Below, one piece after another: positions 30,388 through 55,034 of a DNA stretch of 64,000 nt. A model generated the notes under the pieces. That model saw nothing but the letters and a program-made list of their open reading frames with translations, searched no databases and was not told the origin of the DNA. The position numbers and the translations under genes were made by a program. Numbering within the stretch: position 1 is the stretch's first letter; every line of letters starts with the position of its first letter. The stretch comes from Alkalibacter rhizosphaerae (lineage in GTDB: Bacteria > Bacillota > Clostridia > Eubacteriales > Alkalibacteraceae), in NCBI RefSeq assembly GCF_017352215.1, contig NZ_CP071444.1, positions 806,001 through 870,000 on the forward strand, read 5' to 3'.

Positions 30388-30520
30388 GGTCATCCCCCAT
30401 TCCCATTTCAAATAAAACTTTATATCTTACAGTTTATCGTAAAAATTTCATGTGGACCAGTTTTATTGATGCTAATTTATGAAAATTGTTAAGACAAGGG
30501 GGCGTTTTAAATGTTTAAAT

Positions 30521-30558
30521 GGGGACGGTGACTTTTTTGCAAAAAAGTCACCGTCCCC
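30521..30558. repeat. REP-like palindrome, type II
   Basis: A perfect 38-base palindrome: GGGGACGGTGACTTTTTT followed by GC and its exact complement. It lies 30 bases beyond the stop of the surface-protein gene at 30589-32997. Confidence 0.9.
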
Positions 30559-30588
30559 ATCTCAACCCATCTCAATCACCTCAAAACA

Positions 30589-32997: not shown

Positions 32998-33019
32998 CAA
33001 ATCACTCCTTTTATTTTTT

Positions 33020-33057
33020 GGGGACGGTGACTTTTTTGCAAAAAAGTCACCGTCCCC
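33020..33057. repeat. REP-like palindrome, type II
   Basis: The same perfect 38-base palindrome as at 30521, here nine bases beyond the stop of the surface-protein gene at 33067. Confidence 0.9.
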
Positions 33058-33066
33058 ATTAAAAAC

Positions 33067-35220
33067 TTACACACTTCTTTGTTTTCTACTCGTAATCAAA
33101 AGAACCGTCCCCAGGAAGAAGAAACTGAGGATCAACAGAAAAACGGAGCCAGTGTTTGCCGATTCCAAGAGACCAGTCTTGGGGTTGACCTCGTCTTGTA
33201 GCTGGACCAATGCATAAGTAGAGAAATGGTCCGCTTCAAATTCCACATAGGCTTTCCCATCCACCTCCACCATCATACCGGTGAGGATGGTGACATTCCC
33301 GCTTCCGTCCACATATGCCATGGCCAGGTTGTTCATGTCGACTTGCTCTGAAGTCAACTGGATCCGTACCGTAATGGGCGCCGTGATCTCTTCATTTTTC
33401 ACCATGACTTCCGTGATGGTTCCATCCGTATGTTCGATCCGCTTCATCAGCGTCAGATCATATACATCCAAAAGGTCATATCTTTTCCCTTTCAGCTGTT
33501 GTTCCACGATAGCCTGTATTACCGTATCCAAGGTTGTCTTGTCCCCTTGGAGATATACGGTGATTTTCATGGTGTCTTCTTGGTCTTTTTCCGGCAATAG
33601 GATATTTCCTTCCATGTCAGCTGCTCCAGCAACCGATCCGCTTTCCTGTTCCAGATAAGTGATGACCACTGGATCTTTGGTCCACTGGGCGTAGAAGACC
33701 ACGTCTGTTGCCCCCATCGTGTAAGCGCTGCCGGGCGCCAGTTTCGTGCCCGAGGCATCGGATTTTGTGTTCCAACCGGCAAAGGTGTATCCCATTTTTG
33801 CCAACGTACCTGCATTGGCAGATACAATCACTTCGTCATCCATATGGTAGGCGGCATCATCCGTTGGTACCGTCCCCGAGGTGGATCCGTTCCCGGCATA
33901 GGAAACCTGGTATTCTTCCATGGTCCACTGGGCATACAGGGTCACATCTTCTGTTCCCATGACGAAGGTTTCATCCGGTTCGTACGCCGTTCCGCTTCCA
34001 TCAGCACTGGAGTTCCAGCCTGTAAAAAGATGTCCGGTTTTTTCAAAAGTGCTAGCCAGTGCGATGACCGTATCATCCATGTTGTAGACCTTCGTGTCCA
34101 CTGGCGCCGTTCCACCAGTGGATCCGTTGCCGTCGTAGGTGACAGTATAGTCTACCATGTTCCACTGGGCATAGAGCACCGTATCTTCTTCCACATAGAT
34201 GGCATCCTCTACCCCGTAGGCCGTTCCGCTGCCGTCTTCTTCCGTATTCCATCCAGCAAATATGCTTCCGGCTTTGTCTGCTACTGCGGGTTTTTCCACA
34301 GCCTCTTCCCCATCGTTGACATGGGACGTTTTCAGGAGTGTAGCCCCGTCGTAGAACTCCACCTTGGTAAACTCATAGGGAATGGCCAGTGCATCCATTT
34401 CCACTCCGATGGATTGCAACAGGGTTGTGGCGCCTGTATCCTTGTTGATCTGGTACAATCCTCCGTTACCGGTGCTGTCGTACAAGGTGCCATATAAAAC
34501 ATTGTTGATCCGATCAAAGCCCATCCCTTGGGCGTATGTGATGTCGACCCCCAAATTGCCGATAAAAGAGGCTTGGCCGGTAGGTGCGTAAATTTGATAA
34601 ATGCTGTCCGTGGTGATATCGATGCCGTACAGACCGCCGTTGCCGTTAAAAGCAATGTCGATGATGGTCGATGAATTCGTCATTGGGCCGACCAAAGTGA
34701 CCGTAGCATCTACCAAGTCGATGGTATACAAATTTGCGCCAGTGGACACATATGCCGTTTCCGTGGTTGTATCGTAGGCGAAACCTGTTACGTTGTAACT
34801 ATTCAATCCGGTGTTCCCGATTTCCGTCAATGCCCCTGTATCCGTATCTACACCATACAGGATCCCGGTAAAAGAGATCATGTACAGATCCTTCCCGACA
34901 AAATCTCCTCCGGCCATGAAAGTCCCCAAGGTACTTGGAGTTATGTTGGTGATGGTCCCGTCCGGGATGCCGATGGTCGCCAGACCTTGCGGTGTCTGTT
35001 CAACGTTCACACTGTATGCGACCCAGCCATATGCAGTGATGGAACCACTTTTCAATGTCAATGTTCCTTGAGGAGTGTTATCCGTTTGATTCCTTGTTAT
35101 CCCATCCACTCCAGGGTCTACCCCCAAACCCGAATCTGTATCCTGAGCGATGATTCCTCCCGGAATCCAGGTAAAGATCAACAATAAAGCCAATAATAAT
35201 GAAAAGATTTTTGATTTCAA
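33067..35220 (-). CDS. NPxTG cell-wall surface protein 2 with propeller-like and InlB repeats
   Basis: A 717-residue secreted protein. Order: signal peptide (1-25); a region of beta-propeller-like blades (about 75-285, for example TGALTEIGNTG and TGATTLLQSIG); three InlB-type B repeats (about 290-505), each with FAGWNT or similar and ending YAQW; the C-terminal domain common to this locus; NPKTG (679-683), a hydrophobic helix and a basic tail. The start is TTG with GAGGAGG seven bases upstream. A type I repeat (33091-33112) is translated within the final helix (GTVLLIT), so the anchor helix is partly made of repeat sequence. Confidence 0.85.
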   Translation of the reverse strand: MKSKIFSLLLALLLIFTWIPGGIIAQDTDSGLGVDPGVDGITRNQTDNTPQGTLTLKSGSITAYGWVAYSVNVEQTPQGLATIGIPDGTITNITPSTLGTFMAGGDFVGKDLYMISFTGILYGVDTDTGALTEIGNTGLNSYNVTGFAYDTTTETAYVSTGANLYTIDLVDATVTLVGPMTNSSTIIDIAFNGNGGLYGIDITTDSIYQIYAPTGQASFIGNLGVDITYAQGMGFDRINNVLYGTLYDSTGNGGLYQINKDTGATTLLQSIGVEMDALAIPYEFTKVEFYDGATLLKTSHVNDGEEAVEKPAVADKAGSIFAGWNTEEDGSGTAYGVEDAIYVEEDTVLYAQWNMVDYTVTYDGNGSTGGTAPVDTKVYNMDDTVIALASTFEKTGHLFTGWNSSADGSGTAYEPDETFVMGTEDVTLYAQWTMEEYQVSYAGNGSTSGTVPTDDAAYHMDDEVIVSANAGTLAKMGYTFAGWNTKSDASGTKLAPGSAYTMGATDVVFYAQWTKDPVVITYLEQESGSVAGAADMEGNILLPEKDQEDTMKITVYLQGDKTTLDTVIQAIVEQQLKGKRYDLLDVYDLTLMKRIEHTDGTITEVMVKNEEITAPITVRIQLTSEQVDMNNLAMAYVDGSGNVTILTGMMVEVDGKAYVEFEADHFSTYALVQLQDEVNPKTGLLESANTGSVFLLILSFFFLGTVLLITSRKQRSV
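33091..33112. repeat. Type I REP-like half repeat inside a surface-protein gene
   Basis: CGTAATCAAAAGAACCGTCC plus two bases, in frame within the membrane helix of the sorting signal. Confidence 0.8.
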
Positions 35221-35363: not shown

Positions 35364-35400
35364 GTCACGAACCGTGACAAATAAATTGTCAATGACAAAT
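35364..35400. promoter_or_regulatory. Two-part palindrome upstream of surface protein 3
   Basis: GTCACG-AAC-CGTGAC is followed by ATTGTCAATGACAAAT. The same two blocks occur at 41377-41423 upstream of another surface gene. It lies in the 245-base gap between divergent surface genes, 66-100 bases before the start at 35466, and may bind a shared regulator. Confidence 0.55.
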
Positions 35401-35465
35401 GCTGTCACGATTCTTATATGGATCCATATGGGATAGAATAAAGGTAAAGAAAGGAGCGATGATAT

Positions 35466-38111
35466 GTGATGCGAAAGAATACAGCGTGGTTGTTGACGGC
35501 ATTTTTGCTATTTGGTCTGATTTTATCCCCCTCCGGAGTGCTTTCCGCAGAGGGATCGGCGGAAGACCCGGTCCTGATGGCCCCGGCGGTATGCCGACTG
35601 GACTATACAGACGGTACACCATCGGAATTTTACGCAACGATTCAGGAAGGTTTTCTGCAGGCAGTGGCTGGCCAGGATCTGGTGCTTTTGCAGGATGTGA
35701 CTTTGAACCAGAGACTAAGCCTGGCGGGCACGGATTGCACCCTGGTCACCAACGGATTTGATTTGTCCGTTGTGGTCCCCGATGGACTGGGTATGGATGC
35801 TTTTCACGCCACTGTCCGATTGGACGACAGCGGAGGTGGCGGATTTTATGTCACCGGAACGGGACGGGGAGCCATGATCTCCAACTTTTCCGACATCACC
35901 CTGTCCTCCGTGGAATGCCTGCCTAATCCCGGCTATGGATCAGATAACGTGGGCGCTTACGTTCGGGAATTCAGCAACCTGAATGTACAAGGAAATGTTC
36001 AGGGTGTGACCGATGGACTATATATAGCGACGTCAAGCACCGCAACCATCGGTGGAGACGTGGTTTCCATCGCCGGCAAGGGGATCCAGGCTTTGAGTAC
36101 GGGGGCCATCACCGTAGAAGGAGATGTTGTCGCCGAAACGGAGGGGATCTATCATAGTGGAACAGGCCAGATCCACACCAAGGGCAACATAACATCCAAA
36201 ACCGGCACCGCCATCCAAACGGAATGCGACGATCCGTCCAACCTGATCACGGTGGACGGGAATGTCACCGTCACCGGCAACGACTCCCTGGGGTATGAAT
36301 GGGGAATTTTTGCAACTCGCCATTCCAATGTTATTGTGAAAGGTTCCGTCACTAGCGCCATTGACGGGGTCAAGTCCTGGCAGTCCGCACAAGTGGATGT
36401 CTTGGGAGATGTTACATCCAGCGGTTTTCAGATCGTCCAGGTCCAATATGGCGGCCAAGTCAACATCGGCGGATCCCTGGTCAGTACGGACCTTGCTGCA
36501 GAAGGTGTCTATGTCAATAACGCCGGCACGGTGACCATTGACGGCTCCATCACCACGGACCCCGATCAATACATCTTTGTGGCAGAATGGCTGCGAAGAG
36601 AAGGAGTGGACGATTCCTACCGACCGACCATGAAAACCGGTTACTACACTTATACGGACGACTCTCTGGAAAATCGGGTTTTCGTCAAGAAAACAGTAGT
36701 CACACCCGGGGCCTTGCAATTTGAAGCCGGAAGTTATGGTACCTACGAAGGTTACAACGGCTACATTTGGGTGGAACGTCTGGACGGAGATGACGAGAAA
36801 GTCACTGTTGATTATGCTTCTGTGGATGGCACCGCCATTGGCGGGACCCACTACAACACTTTGAGCGGGACTCTGACTTGGCAGGACGGGGATAGGGATC
36901 GGAAGTACATCCCCTTTACCGTCTACAACGACTCCACTTACAACGGATATTTGAACCTGACCGTGGAGCTGTCCAACCCGACGGGAGGAGCCACCTTGGG
37001 AGCGCAAAACCCCTTGAGTGTTCAATTAAGCGACAACGATACTCCACTGGCACCAACTGGGTTAACTGCCACTGCCGGAGATCAGGAAGTGGTCCTGGAG
37101 TGGGATGAAATAAAAGACACCTATTACCGTGTCTATTATTCCACAGAATCCGGAAATTTCAACGAGACAGACAAGGTGTCCGTCTACGGGAAAACGACCT
37201 ACACCTTTGAAGGATTGGACAACCAGACCACCTATTACTTCATGGTCAAGGCCGTCCACAATATTTACCCCAGTCTGGCTTCGGAAGAAGTATCTGCAAC
37301 CCCCTTCACCACCTACACCGTTGCCTTCGACGCCAACGGCGGAAGCAGTGTGGAAGCACGGATGGTGGCACATGGGGATCTGCTTCCTTCACCGGCAGAT
37401 CCTGCCAAGGAAGGATACACCTTCTTAGGCTGGTATGTGGATGAAGACTTGACCCAACTGTGGGATTTTGCCACAGAGACCGTCGTCTCCAACAACACCT
37501 TGTATGCCGGATGGGAAACCATCCCTCCCGCTGTTGCAGTCATCAAGACAGACGATGAAACAGGCGTGGAGGTCCAGGGGATCGAAGATGCGGTCACCAT
37601 CCCGGAAGAAGAAATGGAAGGGATCAAGGAAGTTGAAATCTACGTGGCTGCCAAGGAGATCCTGTTGAAAGGAGACCTGCTGGCAGAAGTGGAAGACCAA
37701 CTGGAACAACAGGGATACTCCCTGCTAACCACTCTGAACATCCAGCTTCGAAAGATCGTGAAAGACTACGAGGGCATAAAAAAAGACCTGTTGGTAGAGA
37801 ACAAGGACATCACCGGGGACTTGACCGTTCGCATCCCCTTGACGGAAGAACAGGCCGCCATGGATGACCTGGCCATCGCCTATGTGGATGGAGACGGCAA
37901 TGTAAGCATTTTGACCGGCATGGTGGAAACGGTAGGAGATAAAACATATTTTACATTTGAGACAGACCACTTTTCCATCTACGCCCTGGTGGAAGCAACC
38001 AGACCGGTGAATCCGGCTACTGGAACTGCCGGAAGCATGGGATTGGGTATGCTGGCATCGTTGCTTGGTTTGGCAGGCTTGGGCATGGTTTTGTGGCGGA
38101 AGCGGAAATAA
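35466..38111 (+). CDS. NPxTG cell-wall surface protein 3 with Calx-beta and FN3 domains
   Basis: An 881-residue secreted protein, the only one of the six on the plus strand. Order: signal peptide (1-30); beta-helix-like repeats (about 60-400); a Calx-beta domain (about 415-525, with DYASVDGTAIGGTHY and LTVELSNP); a fibronectin type III domain (about 527-615, with PTGLTATAGDQEVVLEWDE); one InlB-type repeat (about 617-685); the common C-terminal domain; NPATG (849-853), helix and WRKRK tail. Start is GTG at 35466, nine bases after AGGAG, or the adjacent ATG. Calx-beta and FN3 modules are adhesion or spacer domains. It converges on the next gene across a type I hairpin. Confidence 0.87.
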   Translation: MMRKNTAWLLTAFLLFGLILSPSGVLSAEGSAEDPVLMAPAVCRLDYTDGTPSEFYATIQEGFLQAVAGQDLVLLQDVTLNQRLSLAGTDCTLVTNGFDLSVVVPDGLGMDAFHATVRLDDSGGGGFYVTGTGRGAMISNFSDITLSSVECLPNPGYGSDNVGAYVREFSNLNVQGNVQGVTDGLYIATSSTATIGGDVVSIAGKGIQALSTGAITVEGDVVAETEGIYHSGTGQIHTKGNITSKTGTAIQTECDDPSNLITVDGNVTVTGNDSLGYEWGIFATRHSNVIVKGSVTSAIDGVKSWQSAQVDVLGDVTSSGFQIVQVQYGGQVNIGGSLVSTDLAAEGVYVNNAGTVTIDGSITTDPDQYIFVAEWLRREGVDDSYRPTMKTGYYTYTDDSLENRVFVKKTVVTPGALQFEAGSYGTYEGYNGYIWVERLDGDDEKVTVDYASVDGTAIGGTHYNTLSGTLTWQDGDRDRKYIPFTVYNDSTYNGYLNLTVELSNPTGGATLGAQNPLSVQLSDNDTPLAPTGLTATAGDQEVVLEWDEIKDTYYRVYYSTESGNFNETDKVSVYGKTTYTFEGLDNQTTYYFMVKAVHNIYPSLASEEVSATPFTTYTVAFDANGGSSVEARMVAHGDLLPSPADPAKEGYTFLGWYVDEDLTQLWDFATETVVSNNTLYAGWETIPPAVAVIKTDDETGVEVQGIEDAVTIPEEEMEGIKEVEIYVAAKEILLKGDLLAEVEDQLEQQGYSLLTTLNIQLRKIVKDYEGIKKDLLVENKDITGDLTVRIPLTEEQAAMDDLAIAYVDGDGNVSILTGMVETVGDKTYFTFETDHFSIYALVEATRPVNPATGTAGSMGLGMLASLLGLAGLGMVLWRKRK

Positions 38112-38133
38112 CGGGAAATAAAAGAAAACAAAG

Positions 38134-38197
38134 AAATCAAAGGGACGGTTCTTTTGATTCCACTCATATGGAATCAAAAGAACCGTCCCTTTGATTT
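38134..38197. repeat. REP-like hairpin, type I (paired), between convergent genes
   Basis: Two perfect 29-base arms with a 6-base loop, the longest copy in the window. It lies 22 bases after one surface gene and 12 bases after the convergent one and probably terminates both. Confidence 0.9.
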
Positions 38198-38209
38198 TAT
38201 TCCTTTACA

Positions 38210-41200
38210 TCAAACAGTTCGCTTGCGTTTTAGCACCACATAGCCTGCCAGCAAGATCCCGAATCCTGCAACCGGAAGAACTCCCGTCATCCCAGACTGG
38301 GTCGTCTCTTCCACACCCGTATCCGGGTTGGTTTCCTGGTCTCCCAGTGCCTGGATCAGTGCATAGTTGCTGAAATGATCCGTTACAAACTGCACGTAGA
38401 CTTTATCGCCTACAGTCACTTTTGTTCCCGTAATAACTGTCACATTCCCTGCATCGTCGATGTAGGCAATGGCTAGGTCGTCTTTGTCCACATCGTCGCC
38501 GGTTAGTAGTACCCGAACGGTGATGGGACCGGTGATGTCGGCATTGTCGATGGTCGATGTAGTAACGGTTCCGTCAAATTCCGTCACTTTTTTCATGAGG
38601 TTGATGTCCAGTATATCCAACAGTTCGTATCCCTTGTCTTTCAGATCCGCCATTACCTTGCTTCGAATGGCATCATCCAGGGATCCTGCCACGACATGGA
38701 CATACACTTCCACTTCTTTGGTATCCGGATCTTCTAGTTCCGGAAGTATCACGTTGGTTTTCATTCCTTCCGTAACCAATCCCGTTTCCGGATCGGTTTC
38801 CACGTATTTTACCACCGGCGGGATCTTGTCCCACTGGGCATACAGGGTGACGTTGCCCAAAATACCAAAGGTGGCTCCCGGTGCATACGTTTCGCCCGTT
38901 CCATCTGCCTTGGTGTTGAAACTATTGAAGGTATACCCCAATAAAGTAAATGCATTGTCTTTCACCGTTACGGTAGCATCCGTCAGGTAAGGCCCTTCCG
39001 TATCCGTTACGGTCCCGGTGCCTCCGTTGCCGTCATAGGTGACCAGATACAGAGGTTCGACAATGACAGCATTCAGTGCCTGCCCCCAGTAAGATATGAC
39101 ACCCATCTCCAACTCTTCCAGGTTGGTAACAGACTGGCAGTTGAATTCTCCGATGACAACATCAGCGATATAGGCGTCAGCCGGCTCTTTAAAGACGGCA
39201 TTGGACAGGATGATCTGTGCATGTCCCGTTTCTTCCAGGGTCTTGTCGTCTCCTGCAAATATGGCGGCATTCCCGGAAAGGGCATCCAAGGATACCGGTT
39301 GCAGATCCGATGCACAGCTGGCGTCCACGTAGCTTTGGTCGATGGTGATATCTCCGCCGGTCACTTCCGTGACCTCATTATAGGTCCAACCGGTGACCAG
39401 ACCGAATTGGTGTCCGTAAACGACCAAGTGGCTCAGTTTCACCGTGATCTCCGTTCCAGCCATGATTCCATAGCCTTTGTTGCTCTGATAACTTGGCTCA
39501 AGAGCTGTTGCTACAACGGTTGCATCCGGACAATTCTCGATCCAAGTGGAACCGGTGCTGTTGATCCCTTTTGCCAAACCCGAAATATCAACCACAGCAA
39601 TGTTTTTTAAAACCACATTGCCTGGAGATTCGCTCTGGGACCATTCGCCGTATGCATAATCTTCGTATCGATAAGAGGAACCGACACGCAGACCTGTCCA
39701 TTCGGAATCAATGTTCAACTCGTCCAGTCCATCCACGGTCAAGTTTCCTGTGATCCGCATGCCGTTGTGGCTGCTTCGAATGGTGATGGTACCGCAGTCC
39801 AGGAACTGGGCGTCTCCATTGCCTTCCACGTCGCTGTCCGGACCGAGACCAACTCGGATCCCCGTATGATACTGGGTCACGATCTCAAGCTCATCCACAT
39901 TTTGAACAAGTAGGTCTCCAATGACCCGCATGCCCGTATGATCTGCAGTGATGTCCAATGTTCCCACGTTGGTGATGGAGGCGTTTCCGTTGGATCCGGA
40001 GTCAGTGTCAGCGCCAGGTCCTACACGGAACCCGTTTTCATCCTCCGTTACGACAAACATGATTTCCACCTGATCGATGACCAGATTTCCCATGGCCCGG
40101 ATGCCGTTGTCCTCTGCTGTTATGGACACATCTCCGCAATTGGTGATGCTCACATCTCCATCCACTCCCGTGTCCTGATCCCCGTCGCTGTCCGGACCGG
40201 ATCGAATCCCGTTATAATCCTCCGCAAAAATCGTCAGGTCTTGAATGTTGTCCAAAATGACGTTTCCGGAATTTCGAATGCCGTTGTCATAGCCGCTTAA
40301 ATCGACGGTCGTACAGTTTTTGATGGTCACGTCTCCGTTTTCCAGGATGCCAAGACCATCGAAATAGTCGACATCATAGGGTTTGGCGTGGATGGCGGAA
40401 TTGTCATCAGAATAAATATCCACCGTGGTCACACCGTCTATGGTCACATTTCCGCCCATCAACCGGATCCCGGCTTCGTAGGAATCAATGGATAGAGAGG
40501 TCCCATTCATGATGGAAACATTTCCTGCCGAATCCGTATAATGTTCCACATCATAATCCGGTCCACCCCGGATCCCGGAATAATCGGATGATGTAAGATC
40601 CATGGAGTCAAAACCGTCAATGGTTATATCCCCCAATACTCTCATGGCGCTGTCGTAGGAATCAAGGATCACATCCCCAACATCGGTAATGGTCAGATGT
40701 CCGCCATCTTGGTTGACAGATTCGCCTCCCGGACCGACTCGGATCCCCGAATCCCCGTCGGAATAACCGCTTAACATACTCAATCCAGTGATGTCCAAAT
40801 TGCCGGTAGCCCGAATGGCATGATAATCAGCTTGGATGGTCAATGACCCGGACCCGCTGATGGTCAGGTCTCCATCGCAGACGATGCCGTTCCCGTTTGG
40901 TGAATTGACCATATTGGTTCCGTTGACAACGATCTCCGTCCCGTCGGGTACCAGAATGGCAAACTCGTAATAAGCATTCAGGGATACAAGCAGCGCATCG
41001 TTCAAGGTGATCCCGTTCAATGTCAGGACTTCACCTGTAGGATCCCATGTCCATCCTTCACCGGATGTCCCAGGATATCCTTCGTCCTCCGCAGCCAACG
41101 TGAAATCCAAGTAGGCTTGTGGCGGCGTTTCCGGCTCCATCAAGTTCAGTGTCTCCGTTTCTTTCAACTTGGCCGGATCTTCCACAAAGTCTTCTTCTGC

Positions 41201-41320
41201 CTTGTCTTCATATTGCGGCCCCAGTAGTGGCTGGTCCCCTTCTATGGCCTGTGCCGGTATGGTTCCGAAAACCAGCAACAAGGACAAGAACAGAACGATC
41301 AGTTTTGATTTCAAATGCAT
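38210..41320 (-). CDS. NPxTG cell-wall surface protein 4, beta-helix repeats
   Basis: A 1036-residue secreted protein. Order: signal peptide (1-25); a conserved entry segment GEGWTWDPTGEVLTLNGI (about 103-120); a long series of about 40-residue repeats with recurring units such as GIRVGPG and GDITIDGFDSMDL (about 140-600), likely a parallel beta-helix; a further region to about 770; one InlB-type repeat; the common C-terminal domain; NPDTG (998-1002), helix and KRKRTV tail. The start may be the ATG at 41320 or a TTG at 41314, which has better spacing to AAGGG and matches the TTG start of protein 2. The C-terminal 165 residues are almost identical to protein 5. Confidence 0.85.
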   Translation of the reverse strand: MHLKSKLIVLFLSLLLVFGTIPAQAIEGDQPLLGPQYEDKAEEDFVEDPAKLKETETLNLMEPETPPQAYLDFTLAAEDEGYPGTSGEGWTWDPTGEVLTLNGITLNDALLVSLNAYYEFAILVPDGTEIVVNGTNMVNSPNGNGIVCDGDLTISGSGSLTIQADYHAIRATGNLDITGLSMLSGYSDGDSGIRVGPGGESVNQDGGHLTITDVGDVILDSYDSAMRVLGDITIDGFDSMDLTSSDYSGIRGGPDYDVEHYTDSAGNVSIMNGTSLSIDSYEAGIRLMGGNVTIDGVTTVDIYSDDNSAIHAKPYDVDYFDGLGILENGDVTIKNCTTVDLSGYDNGIRNSGNVILDNIQDLTIFAEDYNGIRSGPDSDGDQDTGVDGDVSITNCGDVSITAEDNGIRAMGNLVIDQVEIMFVVTEDENGFRVGPGADTDSGSNGNASITNVGTLDITADHTGMRVIGDLLVQNVDELEIVTQYHTGIRVGLGPDSDVEGNGDAQFLDCGTITIRSSHNGMRITGNLTVDGLDELNIDSEWTGLRVGSSYRYEDYAYGEWSQSESPGNVVLKNIAVVDISGLAKGINSTGSTWIENCPDATVVATALEPSYQSNKGYGIMAGTEITVKLSHLVVYGHQFGLVTGWTYNEVTEVTGGDITIDQSYVDASCASDLQPVSLDALSGNAAIFAGDDKTLEETGHAQIILSNAVFKEPADAYIADVVIGEFNCQSVTNLEELEMGVISYWGQALNAVIVEPLYLVTYDGNGGTGTVTDTEGPYLTDATVTVKDNAFTLLGYTFNSFNTKADGTGETYAPGATFGILGNVTLYAQWDKIPPVVKYVETDPETGLVTEGMKTNVILPELEDPDTKEVEVYVHVVAGSLDDAIRSKVMADLKDKGYELLDILDINLMKKVTEFDGTVTTSTIDNADITGPITVRVLLTGDDVDKDDLAIAYIDDAGNVTVITGTKVTVGDKVYVQFVTDHFSNYALIQALGDQETNPDTGVEETTQSGMTGVLPVAGFGILLAGYVVLKRKRTV

Positions 41321-41376
41321 TCACCCTTTCTCTTAACGTTATAAATATGCATAAATACACAAAATCATCATATCAC

Positions 41377-41413
41377 ACAAAACCCTTGTCACGGTTCGTG
41401 ACAAGGGTTTTGT
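41377..41413. promoter_or_regulatory. Long palindrome upstream of surface protein 4
   Basis: Perfect 17-base arms around GTT, containing TTGTCACG and CGTGACAA, followed directly by TTTGTCATTGACAAA (41409-41423). The combination matches 35364-35400. It lies 57-103 bases upstream of the gene start and is a candidate shared operator. Confidence 0.6.
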
Positions 41414-41433
41414 CATTGACAAATGATAAACTT

Positions 41434-41479
41434 AAGTGGGGACGGTGACTTTTTTGCTCAAAAGTCACCGTCCCCACTT
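41434..41479. repeat. REP-like hairpin, type II
   Basis: Arms AAGTGGGGACGGTGACTTTT and its complement around TTGCTC, seven bases beyond the stop of surface protein 5. It is the exact reverse complement of the copy at 44870 apart from one end base. Confidence 0.9.
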
Positions 41480-41486
41480 GCACAAC

Positions 41487-44400
41487 TTAAAACGCTTTTC
41501 TTCTTCGTTGGATCCAGAGGATCCCTACTGCCAGCAACCAGATACCGAGGAAAGACAATAGGGACATTTCGTTGCCGCCAATACTGCTTCCTTCATCCAT
41601 CGATCCTGTGGATGGGTTGGCTTCCTGATCTCCCAACTCCTGGATCAAAGCATAGTTGCTGAAGTGATCCGTTACAAACTGCAGGTAGACTTTATCGCCT
41701 ACCGTCACTTTTGTTCCCGTGATCACCGTTACATTCCCTGCATCGTCGATGTAGGCGATGGCCAGGTCGTCTTTGTCCACATCGTCGCCGGTGAGAAGTA
41801 CCCGAACGGTGATGGGGCCGGTGATGTCGGCGTTATCTATGGTCGATGTAGTGACCGTTCCGTCAAACTCCGTTACTTTTTTCATGAGACTGATGTCCAG
41901 TATATCCAACAGTTCGTATCCCTTGTCTTTCAGATCCGCCAATACCTTGCTTCGAATGGCGTCATCCAGGGATCCTGTTGCAACATGGACGTATACTTCC
42001 ACTTCTTTGGTATCCGGATCTTCCAGTTCCGGCAAGGTCACGTTGGTTTTCATTCCTTCCGTAACCAATCCCGTTTCCGGATCCGTTTCTACATATTTGA
42101 CGACCGGCGGGATCTTGTTCCACTGGGCATACAGGGTCACATTTCCTTTAATGACAAAGGAGGCTCCCGGTGCATACTCGGTTCCTGATCCGTCGGCTTT
42201 GGTGTTCCAACTGTCATAAGTGTATCCCAATAAATCAAAGGTGTTCTCCAAAACCGTCACGGTTGCATCTGTCAAGTAAGGATCCTGGGTGTCTTCCAAA
42301 CTGCCTGTCCCGCCGTTGCCATCATAGGTAACGTAATACTGGGGCTCCAACACCACGTTGTTGAGGGCTTCTCCCCAATGGGTGATGGAATCCATCATCA
42401 GTTCCTCTTCATTGGTAAAGGACTGGCAGTTGAACTGACCGATGACCACGTCGGCAATGTAGCCGTCTACCGGCGTCTTGATAACCGTATCAATGAGGAT
42501 GATCTGGGCATGACCGGTGTCTTCATAAGCTTTGTCGTCGCCGGCAAAGATGGCAGCGTATCCCCCAAAAACTATTGGTCCTTCATAACCGATCATCATC
42601 TCAGGGGCTGCATTGGCATCTACATAGCTTTGGTCGATGGTGATGTCTCCACCTGGTGACTGGTTGATGTCCGTGTATCCGTAAGCGTCGTATACCCAGC
42701 CGGTGACCAGTCCAAACTTGTCCCCGTATACATTCAAATGGCTGTTTACTATATCGATGGTGGTGCCTGCCAGGATCCCGTATCCTACATTGTCTTCGTC
42801 GTCTTTTAGTGCCTGTTCCGATCCGGCCACCGTTGCCACGATTTCTGCAAAGGTGCAATTTTCCAACAAGGTGGATCCGTAGCTGTGGATCCCTTTGGCA
42901 TAGGCGTTGATGTCCATGGCTGCAACGTTCTTCAAGATGACATTGCCTGGAGAATCGCTTTGGGAATTGCCGTAGTCGGATCTTTCAGGATTGTCATAAT
43001 AATAGGACGATCCCACCCGTAGCCCTGTCCATTCAGACTGGATGTTTAGGGCAGTCAATCCATTGATGGTCAAATCCCCGGTGATGCGCATGCCGTTGTA
43101 GTCACTGGTAATGGACAAGGTTCCACAATTGAGGATCTCTGCATTGCCGTCGCTGGCAGTGATGATTTCTTCATCCCCCAAACCGACACGAATGCCGTTT
43201 CGGTTTTGAGAGGTAACATCAATGTTGGTCACATTCTCCATGTACAGATCGCCCATGGCGCGAATGGCATTATCATAGGCGTCGATGTCCAAGGTCCCGC
43301 AATCGGTGATGGTGATATCTCCGTTGGCAGCCGTCTGGCGATTCTGGGTTGGTCCGATGCGCAACCCACTATTATCGTCACAGACGATAGTGAAAGTCCC
43401 AACATTGTCAACAGTCAAGTCTCCAATGGCTTTAATTCCATCATAATATGATTCGATCTCAAAAGTTTCCACGTTGGAGATGACAACGCTTCCTAAAGCT
43501 CCAGTATCTTTTGTGTCTCCGTCTCCAGGTCCCACCATCATTCCTCGATTATCCGAAGAAATCAAAGAAACGGAATCTACGTTGTCGATCAAAACATCAC
43601 CTAGAGATCGGATGCTGTTTTCGTAGGAATTTATGGAGATATCCCCGCAACTGGTGATGGAGGTTTCGCCCAAGGTTCCAGGTGTATACCCATCGACGTT
43701 ATACGGTCCGGACCGAAGACCGGAAGCATCGTCGGAAAGGATCGTCAGATTTGTGATCCCGTCGATGAAAATTTCGCTCATGGTTCGGATCCCCGACTCC
43801 TCGGAATCGATATTCACTGTATCCACGTTGGAAAGATAGACGTCCCCGTTGGATCCCATGTCGTTCTCCCCATAGTCACCGGCTCCGGCACGGATGCCAT
43901 TATAGGAGGATGATGTCAGATCCAGCATCGTCAGTTGAGATATTCTTAAATCACCAATGGCACGGATGCTGTTGTAATAGGTATCCACCCAGAGGCTGCC
44001 GCTTCCATTAATGGTCAGATCTCCATAACAGAGAATGCCATTCCCGTTGTTGTGAGAAATACTGTTCATGCCCGTCACGGTAATGGTGCTGCCGTTTGGC
44101 ACCTGGATGGCAAAAGCATGGGCTGCCAAGGTACTGCTCAGCTCTGACGTGGTGATAATGGACATATTTATTCCATTCAAGCTCAATACTTTCGTAGCTG
44201 CATCCCAAGTCCATCCTTCTCCACTTTCTCCAGGATAGGAAGGATCGGTAGCTTCCAAGGTAAAGTCCAGATAATCCGGTGGGACAAAATCCAGCTCCAG
44301 TTCATCTTCCGGCTCTGCCATCAATGGTTCCATCAGTGGTTCCATTAAAACGACCGGCTCTTCCGGTTCCTCTGTCGGATCCGGTGGCAAATCTTCGTCC

Positions 44401-44678
44401 TGTGGTGGATCTTCCTGCACAGGGGGTTCTTCAATCAAGGATGGGTCGTTTTCTTCCAAGGGTGGTTCATTATAGTCAGCCGGGGGATCTTCTCCCTCTG
44501 GTGCCGGTTCTTCCAAATCTGCCGGTGGATCCTCTTCCAACGGAGGATATTCATCTGCAGGTGGCAAGGTTTCTAGTGCTGGTGGATCTTCCACCAGTAC
44601 GTCGGCCATGGCCTGTAACGGCAGGAATGAGAAGACCATAAATAGTGCAAACATCAGTACCAATACTCTGCGTTTCAT
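41487..44678 (-). CDS. NPxTG cell-wall surface protein 5, acidic proline-rich N-terminus and beta-helix repeats
   Basis: A secreted protein of about 1063 residues. Order: signal peptide (1-25); an acidic proline-rich stalk of about 110 residues (repeated EDPPAD/EEPP units), absent from its paralogues; the GEGWTWD entry segment; beta-helix repeats with GIRAGAG/GLRSGPY-type turns (about 190-600); InlB-type repeat; common C-terminal domain; NPSTG (about 1021), helix and RRRKAF tail. I chose the ATG at 44678, seven bases after AGGGAG, over a TTG 21 bases earlier. The final 165 residues differ from protein 4 at only a few positions while the rest has diverged, indicating recent recombination. Confidence 0.86.
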   Translation of the reverse strand: MKRRVLVLMFALFMVFSFLPLQAMADVLVEDPPALETLPPADEYPPLEEDPPADLEEPAPEGEDPPADYNEPPLEENDPSLIEEPPVQEDPPQDEDLPPDPTEEPEEPVVLMEPLMEPLMAEPEDELELDFVPPDYLDFTLEATDPSYPGESGEGWTWDAATKVLSLNGINMSIITTSELSSTLAAHAFAIQVPNGSTITVTGMNSISHNNGNGILCYGDLTINGSGSLWVDTYYNSIRAIGDLRISQLTMLDLTSSSYNGIRAGAGDYGENDMGSNGDVYLSNVDTVNIDSEESGIRTMSEIFIDGITNLTILSDDASGLRSGPYNVDGYTPGTLGETSITSCGDISINSYENSIRSLGDVLIDNVDSVSLISSDNRGMMVGPGDGDTKDTGALGSVVISNVETFEIESYYDGIKAIGDLTVDNVGTFTIVCDDNSGLRIGPTQNRQTAANGDITITDCGTLDIDAYDNAIRAMGDLYMENVTNIDVTSQNRNGIRVGLGDEEIITASDGNAEILNCGTLSITSDYNGMRITGDLTINGLTALNIQSEWTGLRVGSSYYYDNPERSDYGNSQSDSPGNVILKNVAAMDINAYAKGIHSYGSTLLENCTFAEIVATVAGSEQALKDDEDNVGYGILAGTTIDIVNSHLNVYGDKFGLVTGWVYDAYGYTDINQSPGGDITIDQSYVDANAAPEMMIGYEGPIVFGGYAAIFAGDDKAYEDTGHAQIILIDTVIKTPVDGYIADVVIGQFNCQSFTNEEELMMDSITHWGEALNNVVLEPQYYVTYDGNGGTGSLEDTQDPYLTDATVTVLENTFDLLGYTYDSWNTKADGSGTEYAPGASFVIKGNVTLYAQWNKIPPVVKYVETDPETGLVTEGMKTNVTLPELEDPDTKEVEVYVHVATGSLDDAIRSKVLADLKDKGYELLDILDISLMKKVTEFDGTVTTSTIDNADITGPITVRVLLTGDDVDKDDLAIAYIDDAGNVTVITGTKVTVGDKVYLQFVTDHFSNYALIQELGDQEANPSTGSMDEGSSIGGNEMSLLSFLGIWLLAVGILWIQRRRKAF

Positions 44679-44869
44679 CTTTCTCTCCCTTCTTGACAAA
44701 AAATAATAACACCATATATCGCATTTTCTTTTTTCCCTAACACAACCACCTTCTTTCTTGCAATTCTATTATTATTTAAAATATTATGAGCGTTATTCTC
44801 TATAGTTGATAATATTGGAATAAAATGTCATAACCTTATCTACAATATATCACAACTGCCTGCTTATGC

Positions 44870-44916
44870 AAGTGGGGACGGTGACTTTTGAGCAAAAAAG
44901 TCACCGTCCCCACCTT
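44870..44916. repeat. REP-like hairpin, type II, inverted relative to 41434
   Basis: Arms GTGGGGACGGTGACTTTT and complement around GAGCAA, 14 bases beyond the stop of surface protein 6. Confidence 0.9.
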
Positions 44917-47912: not shown

Positions 47913-47972
47913 GCTTGATGGGACGGTGACTTTTTTGCAAAAAAGTCACCGTCCCCATCGGAAAATCAAGCT
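47913..47972. repeat. REP-like hairpin, type II, one base deleted
   Basis: GATGGGACGGTGACTTTTTT pairs with the complementary arm ending CCGTCCCCATC; one G is missing on the left. Outer GCTTGAT and ATCAAGC extend the stem. It lies between the convergent toxin and cohesin-protein genes and overlaps the latter's stop. Confidence 0.85.
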
Positions 47973-49594: not shown

Positions 49595-52375
49595 CTACTC
49601 CAATCCGGCCAATCGTCGCCGTAATATGACGAGATCCGTAATATTGATGCTACCGTCGTTGTTGATATCCGCTGCAATCTTGCCTTTGCCTGCCACGTTG
49701 GTGAGTCCTGCCAGGTACCGACGCAAGGTGACCAAGTCGGTGATATTGCTCGTCCCGTCGTCGTTTAGATCCCCTTCCAGGACAAAAGTCACATTCACTG
49801 TAGTTTCCTTGTTCACCGTCACACTTTTCGACGTTTCCGTTCCTGCCACAAGGCTGTCGTTGACCTTCCACTCATATACCCGATATCGTTTCGACGGAAT
49901 TGCCGTAAGCTGCACTGTTTTTCCATGGATGACTTTCGCTCCGGAAGCGATGGTCTTGCCGTCCACTGTGGCATTCAAGCTTCCACCGGGACCATCCACT
50001 GAAAAAGTCACCCCAAAGGTTTGTTGGACCACCGTCACTGTAAAGGTGGTGGTCTTGTTCAGATAAGATACAGTCAAGGTCTGGGTCCCCAGTTTGTTCG
50101 GATCAAATCCAGTCACCATGGCAGTCGTCAAACCTGCGTCCTGTTTTGCTCCGCTGGCCATGTTTGCTGTAACGATCCCGCCGTTGGTGTTCAGACTTTC
50201 ACCCAGGTTATAAGTCCTCTTGGTGGGAAGTGTCTTCATCTGAATGGAGGTTGCATAATCGTCCACTCGGACACCAAAACTGGTGGTTTTGCCGTCATAC
50301 GTAACCGTCAATTGCTGATTCCCAAGTCTGTATGGATCGTACCCGGTCACCATTTCCGTTGTTAACGGAATTTGTGTACTTGCTCCACTGACCATATTTC
50401 CTTGGACCATTCCGCCTGTTGGCGCAAATGCTTCCCCATACAAGTAAGCGATCTTGTTGGGCAGGGTCTTCATTTGGATGGATTCCAGTACATCCGCCAC
50501 CTCCACCGTATATTGCAGCTGATATCCGAAAAACTCCACTGTTAGTTGCTGCTCTCCCAATACAAAAGGATCGTAGCCTTCCACCATGGATCCCAACAGC
50601 GGCATTTCATAAATCAAACCGCTGTCCATGATCACTTTCACCACCCCATCGGAAAGATCCATGGGAGTTCCGTAATCATGTTGTGTGTTGGTCGGCTGAC
50701 TTTTCCATGCCAAGCCTGTTACCTGATCAACGGGCGCTTCCGAAACCACCACATCTGCCATGACACTCAAGCCACCAAATAGAGAGGTCCCAACCAGTAC
50801 TGTGGCCCCATACCCGGAAGCCGTGACATTTCCACCATCATCTACTAAAGCCACCTGCTCATGCACCGATTCCCATGTCATGGATGGATCTGCATACTGG
50901 GGCAAAACATCCACTTGCATCTGTAAAGAATCCTCCGCTCCGTGGAGAAGGATCCGGTCTTGCACCAGTTCCATGGCATTTGGCATTTTCAGGGCTTTTT
51001 CCAAATCCACATACGGGTAGGAATAGACCACATTATTATATGTGATCCCTTGGGCAATGGTCCCCGACTGGATGATCTGCTCGCCAATTTCTCCAGGCGT
51101 CATTCCCACTGGGTCAGGATACAAGCCTCGAAGCAATCCCGCCATTCCCGTCACCACCGGTGTAGCCATGGAGGTTCCGCTTTTATTTCCGTATGCCTGA
51201 TCTCCCGTAAAAAACGTACTAAGAATCGATCCCCCTGGAGCCATTACTTCGTAGCCAATGCCGTCATCAAGTTGATTGTCCCAGTTGGAGAAGTCGGACA
51301 AATAATCTCCGTCGGACTTGGGTGCAGGATCCGTACTCATTACACCAAGAACACCCGGATAAGCTGCCGGGTAGGATTTTGCAGAAGAAGTGGCTCTACC
51401 TTCGTTTCCTGCCGCCGCAACCAAAACAGCTTGCTCCGATGCCGCCAGATATGCTTCCGCTTCCATGACAGAACCGACGTATCCTCCATAGCTCATGTTG
51501 ACGACTTGGGCTCCGTTTTCCACGGCGTAAGCCAGTGCAGCAATGGTGGAAGCAGCAGTAAGGGATCCAGTGGGACTGGATGCACGAACCGGCATGATGC
51601 GAACATTATCAGAGACTCCAGCTCCTCCAAGACCATTTCCCCTGGAAGCGGCAATGATGCCGGCTACATGGGTGCCGTGACCGTTCACGTCTTCAATATT
51701 GCTGTTATCATCATACGTGTTGTATCCATGGACATCATCGATGTAGCCATTTTCATCGTCATCCAGTCCATTTCCCGGGATTTCTCCCCCATTGACCCAC
51801 AAAGTGTCCACCAGGTCTTCATGGGTGGTGCGAATCCCGCTATCAATGACGGCCACTACCACGTCTTCCAGTGCGTCATCGGGCAATCCCAGGGACTCCA
51901 CATAACCCCAAGCTTCGGAAGCCTTGATGGCATCCAAGTGCCATTGATCCTCCAGTAGCGGATCCGTGATCCCTTCCAAAAGATACCTCTCCGGATTTTC
52001 TTCTACATATAGTACATCCACTTCCTGGCTCAGTCGCTCCATGATCACAGCAGAGTCTTCCCCTTCCGGGATCTCCACCGTGTACCACGCCGTTTCTTCG
52101 TATCTGCTCTTCTTCATTTTTTTTGATCTTGGAAGATCCACTTTCTTTGCCTTGGATATGCCCAAAGGGGCAAAGTCCGGTTGTTGATCTTTTCCAAACA
52201 ATTCCTTGAGAGGCTCCTGCTTGATTTTTACGTTGATGGTCTTTATCTTTCCATCTGAAGATGGTCCAGACTCTTTCGCCTGGGCCAAGAGCTCCCCTTG
52301 AATACCAAAAAAAGGTCCGAAAAGCAGGAATAGGCACAGCAATATATTGATCCATTGTTTTCTTCCTGTTTTCAT
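49595..52375 (-). CDS. Secreted subtilisin-like protease with Ig-like repeats and a C-terminal dockerin
   Basis: A 926-residue S8-family serine protease. Order: signal peptide (1-32); propeptide (about 40-135); catalytic domain (about 140-445) with Asp178 (AVIDSG), His233 (NGHGTHVAG), oxyanion Asn324 (AAGNEG) and Ser402 (GTSMATP); three bacterial Ig-like (Big_3) repeats (about 560-780), each with IQMKTLP-type strands; an InlB-like divergent repeat (about 783-865); and a type I dockerin (868-926) whose two calcium loops read DLNDDGTSNITD and DINNDGSINITD. All catalytic and calcium ligands are present. The dockerin would attach the protease to the cohesin protein encoded six bases downstream. 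GGAGGTGAGG precedes the ATG. Confidence 0.92.
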   Translation of the reverse strand: MKTGRKQWINILLCLFLLFGPFFGIQGELLAQAKESGPSSDGKIKTINVKIKQEPLKELFGKDQQPDFAPLGISKAKKVDLPRSKKMKKSRYEETAWYTVEIPEGEDSAVIMERLSQEVDVLYVEENPERYLLEGITDPLLEDQWHLDAIKASEAWGYVESLGLPDDALEDVVVAVIDSGIRTTHEDLVDTLWVNGGEIPGNGLDDDENGYIDDVHGYNTYDDNSNIEDVNGHGTHVAGIIAASRGNGLGGAGVSDNVRIMPVRASSPTGSLTAASTIAALAYAVENGAQVVNMSYGGYVGSVMEAEAYLAASEQAVLVAAAGNEGRATSSAKSYPAAYPGVLGVMSTDPAPKSDGDYLSDFSNWDNQLDDGIGYEVMAPGGSILSTFFTGDQAYGNKSGTSMATPVVTGMAGLLRGLYPDPVGMTPGEIGEQIIQSGTIAQGITYNNVVYSYPYVDLEKALKMPNAMELVQDRILLHGAEDSLQMQVDVLPQYADPSMTWESVHEQVALVDDGGNVTASGYGATVLVGTSLFGGLSVMADVVVSEAPVDQVTGLAWKSQPTNTQHDYGTPMDLSDGVVKVIMDSGLIYEMPLLGSMVEGYDPFVLGEQQLTVEFFGYQLQYTVEVADVLESIQMKTLPNKIAYLYGEAFAPTGGMVQGNMVSGASTQIPLTTEMVTGYDPYRLGNQQLTVTYDGKTTSFGVRVDDYATSIQMKTLPTKRTYNLGESLNTNGGIVTANMASGAKQDAGLTTAMVTGFDPNKLGTQTLTVSYLNKTTTFTVTVVQQTFGVTFSVDGPGGSLNATVDGKTIASGAKVIHGKTVQLTAIPSKRYRVYEWKVNDSLVAGTETSKSVTVNKETTVNVTFVLEGDLNDDGTSNITDLVTLRRYLAGLTNVAGKGKIAADINNDGSINITDLVILRRRLAGLE

Positions 52376-52710: not shown

Positions 52711-53208
52711 ATGGCTAAATATAGCGAAGAATTTAAGCTGAGTATCATAAAACAAATGATGCCACCACAAAATAAAACAGTAAGTATCTTGTCAAAAGAA
52801 AATGGCATCGCCGAGCAAACGCTCTTCAAGTGGAAACGCGAAGCAAAGGCCAAAGGTATTGTTATTACTGACGGAGAAGCTCAAAGTGAAAAATGGAGCA
52901 CTCATGACAAGTTCATGATCGTAGTTGAAACAGCATCACTAAATGCCGCAGAACTATCTGAATACTGTCGCCAAAAGGGACTTTATGTTGAACAGGTCGA
53001 ATCATGGAGAGACGCTTGTATGCAGGCCAATGGAGGCGTGGCAGAAGAAGCATCTCGATTAAATAAAGAAAGTAAAGAAAAAGACAAAGAAATTAAAAAA
53101 TTGCAAAAGGAACTTAAACGAAAAGAAGAAGCTCTTGCTGAAACCGCAGCACTCATCGTGCTTAGAAAAAAGGCCCAAGCCATCTGGGGGGACGACGAGG
53201 AAGAATGA
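52711..53208 (+). CDS. IS3-family transposase OrfA (IS3a)
   Basis: A 165-residue helix-turn-helix protein (YSEEFKLSIIKQMM, then ENGIAEQTLFKWKREAKAKG) with a C-terminal coiled coil rich in Glu and Lys. It is the DNA-binding half of an IS3-family transposase. An A6G run (53166-53172) near its end could support the -1 frameshift that joins it to OrfB. It is similar in layout to the 162-residue OrfA of the nested element at 56090-56578 but clearly diverged. Intact, but its OrfB is broken. Confidence 0.88.
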   Translation: MAKYSEEFKLSIIKQMMPPQNKTVSILSKENGIAEQTLFKWKREAKAKGIVITDGEAQSEKWSTHDKFMIVVETASLNAAELSEYCRQKGLYVEQVESWRDACMQANGGVAEEASRLNKESKEKDKEIKKLQKELKRKEEALAETAALIVLRKKAQAIWGDDEEE

Positions 53209-53296
53209 TTTCTCGTGAAGACAGAATTCTTGCAATAAACCTGATAGATGAAGCAGTAAAGAATGGAGCTAGGGAATTAAAGGCTTGTGAAGTTCT

Positions 53297-53300
53297 AAAT
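53297..53300. repeat. Target duplication AAAT of the IS5/IS1182-like element
   Basis: AAAT at 53297-53300 recurs at 54938-54941, directly flanking the element. Confidence 0.7.
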
Positions 53301-54937
53301 AGGGCTTGCTGAACGATTCACAGACTGTTGGCAGCAACCAAATTCTTTGCCTTAATGTCGCAAATGAAGCGAATCCAAAATTGCGACAAAAGGGACCGAA
53401 GCCTCCGGTCCAAGTTCATTACCAGAAACTGTAGAATAATGACGCTTTTCGTTGTATCTTCAAGCTTGGTTTTAATAAGGCCCAAGCCATATTTCCTCTT
53501 GCCGACACCGTAGGATCCTTCTACCGCATTACGTTCACCATTGTCTGCCTTTTGTATCTTCTTGACTTCCGGTGAAACAACTTTCGGTTTCCGTCCAAGC
53601 CTGGGTCCGCTGATGCGAATCCCTCGAAGTTTGAGCCATGCCAGGTTCTTGCGGTTACGAAAGATGGAATCCGCTAGAACGGCTTCCGGATAGCAGCCAA
53701 AGCGCCTGCGGTATTGTTCCACTGCTTCCTGCAGGAGAATCCCTTCGTTGAAAGTATCAAAGTCAAGCTTTTCTACGAAGGTGTAACCATCCACGACGCT
53801 TGTCATGACCTTGCACCCAAACTCTACGTCTGAGCCTGCTTTCCCTCGGACAATGGGTCTGATGTACGGCTGAGAAATGCTTACAATTCTCTCTTCTACA
53901 CTGTGGGTTCTCTCATCGTACATATATTGTTGCTGCCCATACAGTTTTTCTATGGTACCAAGCTGGTCGCTCTGGCGTTTTGTCAGTAGTTCAGCCCTTG
54001 TGGGATCTTCAAGATAGGATCTTACATATTCCAGGTCCCGCTTCACATAGCCAAGCTGTTTACGAATTGCTTTTCGTATCGCCTTGCTGCGTTTCTTGCG
54101 CTGCTTCTCCAGGGACAAATAATCTTTACGAGCGCGATTTCTGTAGGTTCTAGGTTTTGGCAAAACACTGATATCTGGGGCATGGAGAACATCAATCATC
54201 TCTTCCAACTTTTCCCGGGCTTCGTTGAGAAGGCGCAGGTCCGTCGGAAAGCGAATATCGCTGGGTGCACAGGTAGCATCAAGGATCAATTTCCCTCTCT
54301 TCGGAATGTCATCAAAGCTGATTTGAACATCCTCATTTGGTGGCTGTGTTGGACCAGAACCATTATTGTTATCGGAATCGTCCTCCTTGTTTTTGTCAGC
54401 AATGGTTTCCAGCTCTTTCATGGCAATGATGTTGTTTATCTCCATAAGGATGTCCGGTTTGAACCGCTTTCGAAAGTGGGTGATCAGGGATGAATCAAAC
54501 GGCGGCTTATCGTCTTCAAAGCTGTCATATCCAAGGAAATACTGGAGGTATGGATTTTCCATCACCTGCAAGGGTACTTCGGCATCCACCAGCTTCATTT
54601 TGGTTTGCAATATCAACGTTCCCAGAGCAACCCGGACAGATAGTGCTTCCTCTCCCTTGTTGGAGGGTTTGAAGTTCTTGGCATAGGCATCCTCGAAATC
54701 GGACCAAGGAATCAAATCGGCCAGTATGACCCAGCGATTGTTTTTGTTGAGCGTTCCACCAAAAGGCAGGAAAAAGTCATCCGAAAACTTGATCTGGTTG
54801 GTTTTTCTGATGTACATGAGGCGCCTCCATCTGCAAAGATTTTTGGACTAAAAGTGTATAATCCTTGCATCTATTATACCAAAAAATCGCATCAAAGTCA
54901 GTGTTTTCAATGGTCTTAGCTTTGTTCAGTAAGCCCT
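53301..54937. mobile_element. IS5/IS1182-like insertion sequence
   Basis: A 1637-base element with 14-base terminal inverted repeats (AGGGCTTGCTGAAC against AGGGCTTACTGAAC, 13 matches) and a 4-base target duplication, inserted in IS3a orfB. It carries one transposase gene on the minus strand. Confidence 0.85.
53318..54817 (-). CDS. DDE transposase, IS5/IS1182-like
   Basis: A 499-residue transposase, apparently intact. The N-terminal domain has the PYLQYFLGYDSFEDDKPPFD and THFRKRF segments typical of the IS5/IS1182 group. The catalytic triad is Asp in LILDATCAPSDIRFP, Asp in VLADSIFRNR and Glu in NAVEGSYGVGKRKYGLG. I am sure of the DDE_Tnp_1 superfamily but not of the exact family. It fills the element. 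Confidence 0.85.
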   Translation of the reverse strand: MYIRKTNQIKFSDDFFLPFGGTLNKNNRWVILADLIPWSDFEDAYAKNFKPSNKGEEALSVRVALGTLILQTKMKLVDAEVPLQVMENPYLQYFLGYDSFEDDKPPFDSSLITHFRKRFKPDILMEINNIIAMKELETIADKNKEDDSDNNNGSGPTQPPNEDVQISFDDIPKRGKLILDATCAPSDIRFPTDLRLLNEAREKLEEMIDVLHAPDISVLPKPRTYRNRARKDYLSLEKQRKKRSKAIRKAIRKQLGYVKRDLEYVRSYLEDPTRAELLTKRQSDQLGTIEKLYGQQQYMYDERTHSVEERIVSISQPYIRPIVRGKAGSDVEFGCKVMTSVVDGYTFVEKLDFDTFNEGILLQEAVEQYRRRFGCYPEAVLADSIFRNRKNLAWLKLRGIRISGPRLGRKPKVVSPEVKKIQKADNGERNAVEGSYGVGKRKYGLGLIKTKLEDTTKSVIILQFLVMNLDRRLRSLLSQFWIRFICDIKAKNLVAANSL

Positions 54938-55034
54938 AAATATCAGTCAAAGAACTCTCTTTAGATGGCGAAGTAAAAACACACCCGATGAGGATCGGTA
55001 ATTGTCAACATAGTTGTCGCTTTTCTCAAATATG

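Follow-up and report, generated by a model that had tools for sequence, protein, structure and literature searches.

What are two matching pairs of palindromes doing upstream of surface-protein genes in Alkalibacter rhizosphaerae? The window analyzed here is a stretch of 64,000 nucleotides (contig NZ_CP071444.1, positions 806,001 to 870,000 of the forward strand), and it belongs to a genome that is a single contig of 2,449,552 bases, called C1 below; coordinates without a prefix refer to the window. A sequence-only reading had pointed to a two-part palindrome ahead of two surface genes and proposed a specific regulator or a phase-control site. Both composites were found where that reading had placed them, and each consists of an N7 dyad, TTGTCA-N7-TGACAA (core GTCACG-N3-CGTGAC), and an N1 dyad, TTGTCA-N1-TGACAA. 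We think it likely that the composite is the operator of a 505-amino-acid (aa) protein from the same genome with a helix-turn-helix (HTH)-like stretch, that three surface genes are its targets, and that they are activated through promoters poor in -35 elements.

Layout and rarity of the composite site

The N7 and N1 centers lie 21 bp apart at both window sites (Table 1), and at site 2 the N7 dyad is nested in a longer inverted repeat, AAAACCCTTGTCACG-N3-CGTGACAAGGGTTTT. The 17-mer TTGTCACGGTTCGTGAC, allowing up to three mismatches, matched three times in the window against 0.16 expected (0 of 100 shuffles reached three); these matches are two exact copies plus site 2 read on the opposite strand with three mismatches, and the two exact copies found genome-wide are window sites 1 and 2. 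When the composite was scanned at 21-bp spacing with up to three mismatches, C1 held three copies, and a backwards control pattern gave none in the same scans. The third copy, site 3, had been missed by the sequence-only reading; it lies 1.07 Mb from the window copies and precedes another surface-protein gene. All three stand directly upstream of genes from one seven-member surface-protein family, which is the opposite of an element that is widespread and unrelated to gene starts. Scored against the family pattern (TGNCA-N1-TGNCA plus TGNCA-N7-TGNCA), site 1 has one mismatch of 16 and sites 2 and 3 have none. In a DNA alignment of the three site regions, the runs of invariant columns coincide with the dyads themselves, and the site is therefore conserved between diverged upstream regions, as had been claimed.

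At 20-bp spacing with looser half-sites the genome held two further matches, one (C1:89980, two mismatches) within an open frame and the other at C1:2068126 (three mismatches). A one-mismatch N7-core match at C1:1602453 (locus L005) was set aside, as by eye it lies in coding sequence. One-mismatch N1 dyads numbered eight for the true pattern, five of them beyond the known sites, against four for the control pattern. The strict composite (up to three mismatches) was found nowhere outside C1 among 198 genomes (this one and its relatives), and viral contigs gave no site matches.

A genome search with one surface protein defined the family as six window genes and the site-3 gene; the same search also returned a 156-aa open frame whose match was confined to one repeat, and a locus search for further relatives of a surface protein confirmed none. 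Members share a C-terminal part of about 170 residues, and their ends consist of NPxTG, then a hydrophobic segment, then a tail of basic residues, an arrangement that we infer to be a sortase signal. The site-3 protein can be aligned to the window proteins only from residue 806 onward. At the thresholds used, the window has neither an N1 nor an N7 dyad belonging to four of the family's genes; one of these, 41487-44699, is the closest relative of 38210-41320. The gene at 33067-35220 shares site 1 as the divergent neighbor, and by eye it has no -10 at the expected distance. Two 300-bp stretches in the 3' parts of neighboring surface genes (38325-38624 and 41614-41913) are 91% identical, while the proteins are about 50% identical overall, which suggests gene conversion between them.

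Table 1. Composite sites, putative promoter elements, and associated genes
Feature	Coordinates	Strand	Details
Site 1, whole	C1:841362-841398		
Site 1, N7 dyad	35364-35380		GTCACGAACCGTGACAA; GTCACGAACCGTGAC = 35364-35378; center 35371; imperfect, CGGTCA as outer half
Site 1, N1 dyad	35386-35398		TTGTCAATGACAA; center 35392
Site 1, putative -10	35434-35439	+	TAGAAT; 42 bp from N1 center; best -35 3/6; pattern match
Site 2, whole	C1:847386-847422		
Site 2, N7 dyad	41386-41404		TTGTCACGGTTCGTGACAA; center 41395
Site 2, N1 dyad	41410-41422		TTGTCATTGACAA; center 41416
Site 2, weak promoter-like pair	41352-41380	-	TTGTGT at 15 bp and TATTTA at 38 bp from N7 center
Site 3, whole	C1:1913288-1913324 (L011:8289-8325)		N1 center L011:8319
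Surface-protein gene, 881 aa	35466-38111	+	domains InlB-type repeat, Calx-beta, and fn3; C terminus with NPATG, then hydrophobic stretch and basic tail; ATG 35469 as likely start, 77 bp from site 1 N1 center
Divergent surface-protein gene, 717 aa	33067-35220	-	NPKTG; start 151 bp from site 1 N7 center
Surface-protein gene, 1036 aa	38210-41320	-	NPDTG; ATG 41320, 75 bp from site 2 N7 center
Site-3 surface-protein gene, 1003 codons	L011:8393 (start)	+	GTG 8393 and ATG 8402, 74 and 83 bp from site 3 N1 center
Candidate regulator, 505 aa	C1:1680044-1681558 (L012:3042-4559)	-	N-terminal HTH-like stretch; outside the window

A candidate regulator and the composite at its homologues

A relaxed form of the composite was scanned over the genomes of 84,980 species, a set from which A. 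rhizosphaerae or very near genomes may be omitted, and it gave four matches. Three (loci L031, L032, and L034) lie inside open reading frames and were taken as chance. The fourth, in a Bacillota metagenome-assembled genome (L033), lies between two divergent genes, immediately upstream of a 504-codon gene whose 504-aa product opens with an HTH-like stretch. C1, whose host belongs to the same phylum, encodes one homologue of this protein at E ≤ 1, of 505 aa and 37 to 38% identity (E 3.2e-110), and a one-mismatch N7 core (C1:1681609-1681623) is centered 58 bp upstream of its gene; that core had already surfaced in an earlier genome scan, before the regulator was found. The proposal of a specific regulator is thus well supported, with the 505-aa HTH-like protein as a strong candidate.

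Searches of the protein against Pfam and NCBIfam gave nothing above cut-off (the HTH_26 profile scored 16.1 bits at E 0.013, against a cut-off of 22), there was no significant match among solved structures in the PDB, and the C-terminal 400 or so residues matched nothing in Pfam, NCBIfam, or PDB. No relative was found in viral contigs, and an AlphaFold2 model of the L033 regulator alone was uninformative (mean pLDDT 34.6). No publication on the composite or the regulator was apparent in the part of the literature covered by our search. Two genomes of the same genus have neither the strict composite (up to three mismatches) nor a regulator homologue (E ≤ 1e-20), and this joint absence is compatible with gain or loss of the whole regulon at once.

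Regulator homologues were present in 15 of the 198 genomes (E ≤ 1e-20) and, across the phylum, in 32 of 398 (E ≤ 1e-40), A. rhizosphaerae included in both counts. We examined the upstream regions of 44 regulator genes, 18 in a first set and 26 held out, having excluded L059 (the same DNA as L033), L058 (A. rhizosphaerae again), L044 and L083 (both represented in the first set), and six homologue matches without a locus. With TGNCA half-sites, at most 2 mismatches of 16, and center distances of 16 to 25 bp allowed, the composite was found upstream of 18 of the 44 (12 of them mismatch free; the first set accounts for 4 of its 18 genes and the held-out set for 14 of its 26), against 0.11% of 880 shuffled regions; several loci are closely related (e.g., L061/L062 and L068-L070), and these counts are not independent. 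The center distances were 18 to 22 bp, mostly 20 to 21. L077 was scored as a miss because a long open frame shifted the stretch searched, and the composite is visible there. In the full 187 kb of these loci, searched on both strands, all 19 matches with up to one mismatch were upstream of regulators; at two mismatches, 2 were upstream of regulators and 5 fell outside the definition, of which two are still upstream of a regulator on the opposite strand.

The two inner spacings also recurred when exact TGTCA-Nk-TGACA dyads (k = 0 to 12) were counted individually. The first 18 regions held four with k = 1, four with k = 7, two with k = 12, and one with k = 0, against an expectation of about 0.003 to 0.02 per k; L033 was in this set by selection, and when it is omitted 5 of 17 regions have k = 1 or k = 7 dyads. 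The 26 held-out regions gave three, two, three, and one for k = 1, 7, 12, and 8. In each set, none of 300 shuffles reached the sum for k = 1 and k = 7.

The middle base of the half-site is the variable position, and the upstream regions of L063, L065, L066, L073, and L074 mix TGACA, TGTCA, and TGGCA within single composites. For regulators with Phe at one HTH position, TGGCA made up 20 of 26 half-sites, and for those with His or Tyr the figure was 6 of 36 (Fisher 4e-6; L046, with Ile, and non-TGNCA half-sites are omitted), a comparison that is weakened by the choice of the Phe/His/Tyr grouping after inspection and by repeated counting of related sequences. The A. rhizosphaerae regulator has His at this position, and the half-sites presumed to be bound by it in the window read TGTCA. 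As a lead, this covariation points to a candidate specificity residue.

Promoter geometry and direction of control

At 15 of the 44 loci (tblastn E ≤ 1e-3; loci extend about 1.5 kb past the match), the composite lies between the regulator and a divergent gene for a protein of about 100 aa. In G539 it stands ahead of a gene of this partner type that is not beside the regulator; in G475 it is upstream of a relative of a protein of about 189 aa. Genes for the latter, which is membrane-like by eye and matched no family model, were seen beside the partner gene (L103:1615-2184 and L128:2051-2620), and a relative in L130 (L130:1544-2212) has an upstream composite. Of seven loci whose surroundings were inspected, only L128 and L130 are likely targets away from the regulator.

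On the partner side, the best -10 starts 43 to 45 bp from the N1 center in 14 of 16 promoters, and the -35 at that -10 matches at no more than four of six positions; the exceptions are L078, where no -10 was found, and L128, where the second-best match is at 43 bp, and L033 has an equally good second -10 at 37 bp. On the regulator side, the best -10 starts 37 to 39 bp from the N7 center in 17 of 18 promoters, and a TTG-type -35 starts 15 bp from that center in 11 of 18. In A. rhizosphaerae, sites 1 (42 bp) and 3 (43 bp, without a good -35) keep the -10 distance from N1 seen on the partner side, and the weak pair at site 2 has the regulator-side promoter spacing. The sequence-only reading had described the block order as reversed relative to the genes. 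That description holds only because genes 35466(+) and 41320(-) face opposite ways, while the composites themselves read alike on the plus strand; the reversal would reflect a single bidirectional operator with two faces.

The sequence itself shows the sites and how rare they are, the family of genes, the spacings, and the recurrence ahead of homologues, and the mechanism that we propose from them is as follows. Very probably, one uncharacterized DNA-binding protein docks on the paired palindromes; it would bind four TTGnCA half-sites, perhaps cooperatively, as two dyads (inner spacers N1 and N7) set roughly two turns of the helix apart and on the same face of the DNA. The regulator would assist RNA polymerase where a promoter has a -10 and lacks a good -35. 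Its targets in this genome would be 35466(+), 38210-41320(-), and L011:8393(+), and it may also control itself by autoregulation; one regulator seems to govern a few surface-protein genes. In other genomes the family would use the composite between its own gene and, often, the divergent gene of about 100 aa. Activation is favored as the direction of control because the -35 elements are missing and the dyads lie upstream of the -10.

Several observations weigh against this account, in addition to the grouping noted above. The regulator's own upstream region has an N7 dyad alone: the N1 partner is missing, no -10 stands where one would be expected, and the dyad overlaps the end of the preceding gene. 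A full composite before the regulator gene, seen for 18 of the 44 homologues, is thus a frequent feature of the family but not a general one. The composite (up to two mismatches) was not found in the searched stretch of 26 of the 44 regulator genes, many of them distant homologues, and exact dyads with spacers N12, N8, and N0 likewise precede regulator genes. Scans of 27 regulator-bearing genomes at 21- and 20-bp spacing with up to three mismatches gave numerous matches (G033 alone has 12 at the 21-bp spacing), many of which look like chance, and some matches to the control. Site 3 has an alternative pair, TTTACA-17-TAGTAT, with its -10 at 48 bp; the promoter match at site 2 is weak, and an automatic promoter scan did not list it. 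The joint absence in both same-genus genomes leaves no close relative for comparison.

The same protein might instead act as a repressor that hinders polymerase, or loops sites 1 and 2 together, until released by a signal. Cro/C1-type HTH regulators are often repressors, the two sites lie 6 kb apart in one cluster and could loop, and a -35 beginning 15 bp from the N7 center, as on the regulator side, would suit such a role. Activation fits better with dyads upstream of the predicted -10s and with -35 matches of four of six or fewer at site 1, at site 3, and on the partner side, and we regard repression of the surface genes as the less probable direction, albeit one to be taken seriously. An intrinsic terminator or RNA attenuator hairpin is far less probable. 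At site 2 the dyad can be lengthened to a 15-bp stem that has TTTT after it on the minus strand, and a terminator scan listed sites 1 and 3 with two terminator-like matches apiece (0.1 in shuffles); the same scan listed none at site 2, however, site 1 is flanked by divergent genes, neither the N1 dyad nor the 21-bp spacing would be accounted for, and in other genomes the composite is upstream of -10 boxes.

Phase variation through inversion of the 6-kb segment, the second possibility raised by the sequence-only reading, finds its appeal in two copies that flank a surface-gene segment, but we consider it very improbable. Sites 1 and 2 share their orientation along the plus strand; they are direct repeats, and recombination between them would delete the 6 kb rather than invert it. 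The third copy is 1.07 Mb away, the composite keeps fixed distances to promoters in other genomes, and among 17 window proteins scanned the only DNA-recombining matches were transposases and integrase-core proteins at 52.7 to 58.7 kb. A dispersed repetitive extragenic palindromic (REP)-like element or mobile-element remnant is about as hard to credit: other repeated hairpins do occupy gaps in this region, but the composite at 21-bp spacing has only three copies genome-wide rather than many, its invariant alignment runs are the dyads, its place relative to the -10 is fixed, and it is present at regulator genes elsewhere.

Neighboring features, known systems, and meaning

Other features of the window were noted in passing. 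A near-perfect hairpin, TGGGGACGGTGACTTTT...AAAAGTCACCGTCCCCA, occurs in five copies between surface genes (30515-30559, 33014-33058, 41432-41476, 44868-44912, and 47913-47957) and appears to be a dispersed repeat or terminator family. Another apparent dispersed repeat family, AATCAAAAGAACCGTCCC, has six copies in gaps or near gene ends (10314, 19130, 26644, 27657, 33083, and 38161), of which the ones at 10.3 and 38.1 kb face a copy in reverse complement. The surface cluster is adjoined by a gene (49595-52375) encoding a subtilase that combines two Ig-like domains and an InlB-type repeat with a type I dockerin; several transposase families are represented in a gene cluster (52711-58724) at the border of the surface-protein region, and at 58994-60343 a cytidylyltransferase-like domain is fused to a GFO/IDH/MocA oxidoreductase.

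Among known systems, the candidate regulator is like Cro/C1-type (XRE) HTH regulators in its N-terminal HTH-like stretch and in the dyad operators before its own gene in many homologues; unlike them, it falls below cut-off for HTH models, has an unmatched C-terminal part of about 400 residues, and is associated with two dyads of different spacers. Mga and RofA-like proteins are stand-alone activators of Gram-positive surface-protein genes, and the arrangement proposed here would likewise have one regulator, several surface-protein genes, and upstream sites; the regulator has no Mga or PRD match, however, and the operators differ. Similarity to the EspR-type HTH regulator over the HTH stretch is weak and not significant (E 0.76 to 0.97), and that chain has 123 to 135 residues against 505.

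On a broader scale, and with less assurance than for A. rhizosphaerae itself, we lean toward an unnamed HTH family spread over many genera of the phylum that would read a four-half-site operator, with one half-site serving two dyad spacings two helical turns apart. The operator would act as a two-way promoter switch with a fixed -10 distance on each side, and here it would have moved from its usual divergent partner gene to sortase-type surface-protein genes in separate parts of the chromosome. An anonymous pair of palindromes thereby becomes a testable regulon, and a regulator family that matched no model in Pfam or NCBIfam would gain a defined operator, a residue that is a candidate for setting specificity, and a group of surface-protein genes. 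The two-spacer operator also raises a structural question, namely, how one protein would read half-sites 6 and 12 bp apart, and the composite rule can aid target prediction in other genomes that carry the family.

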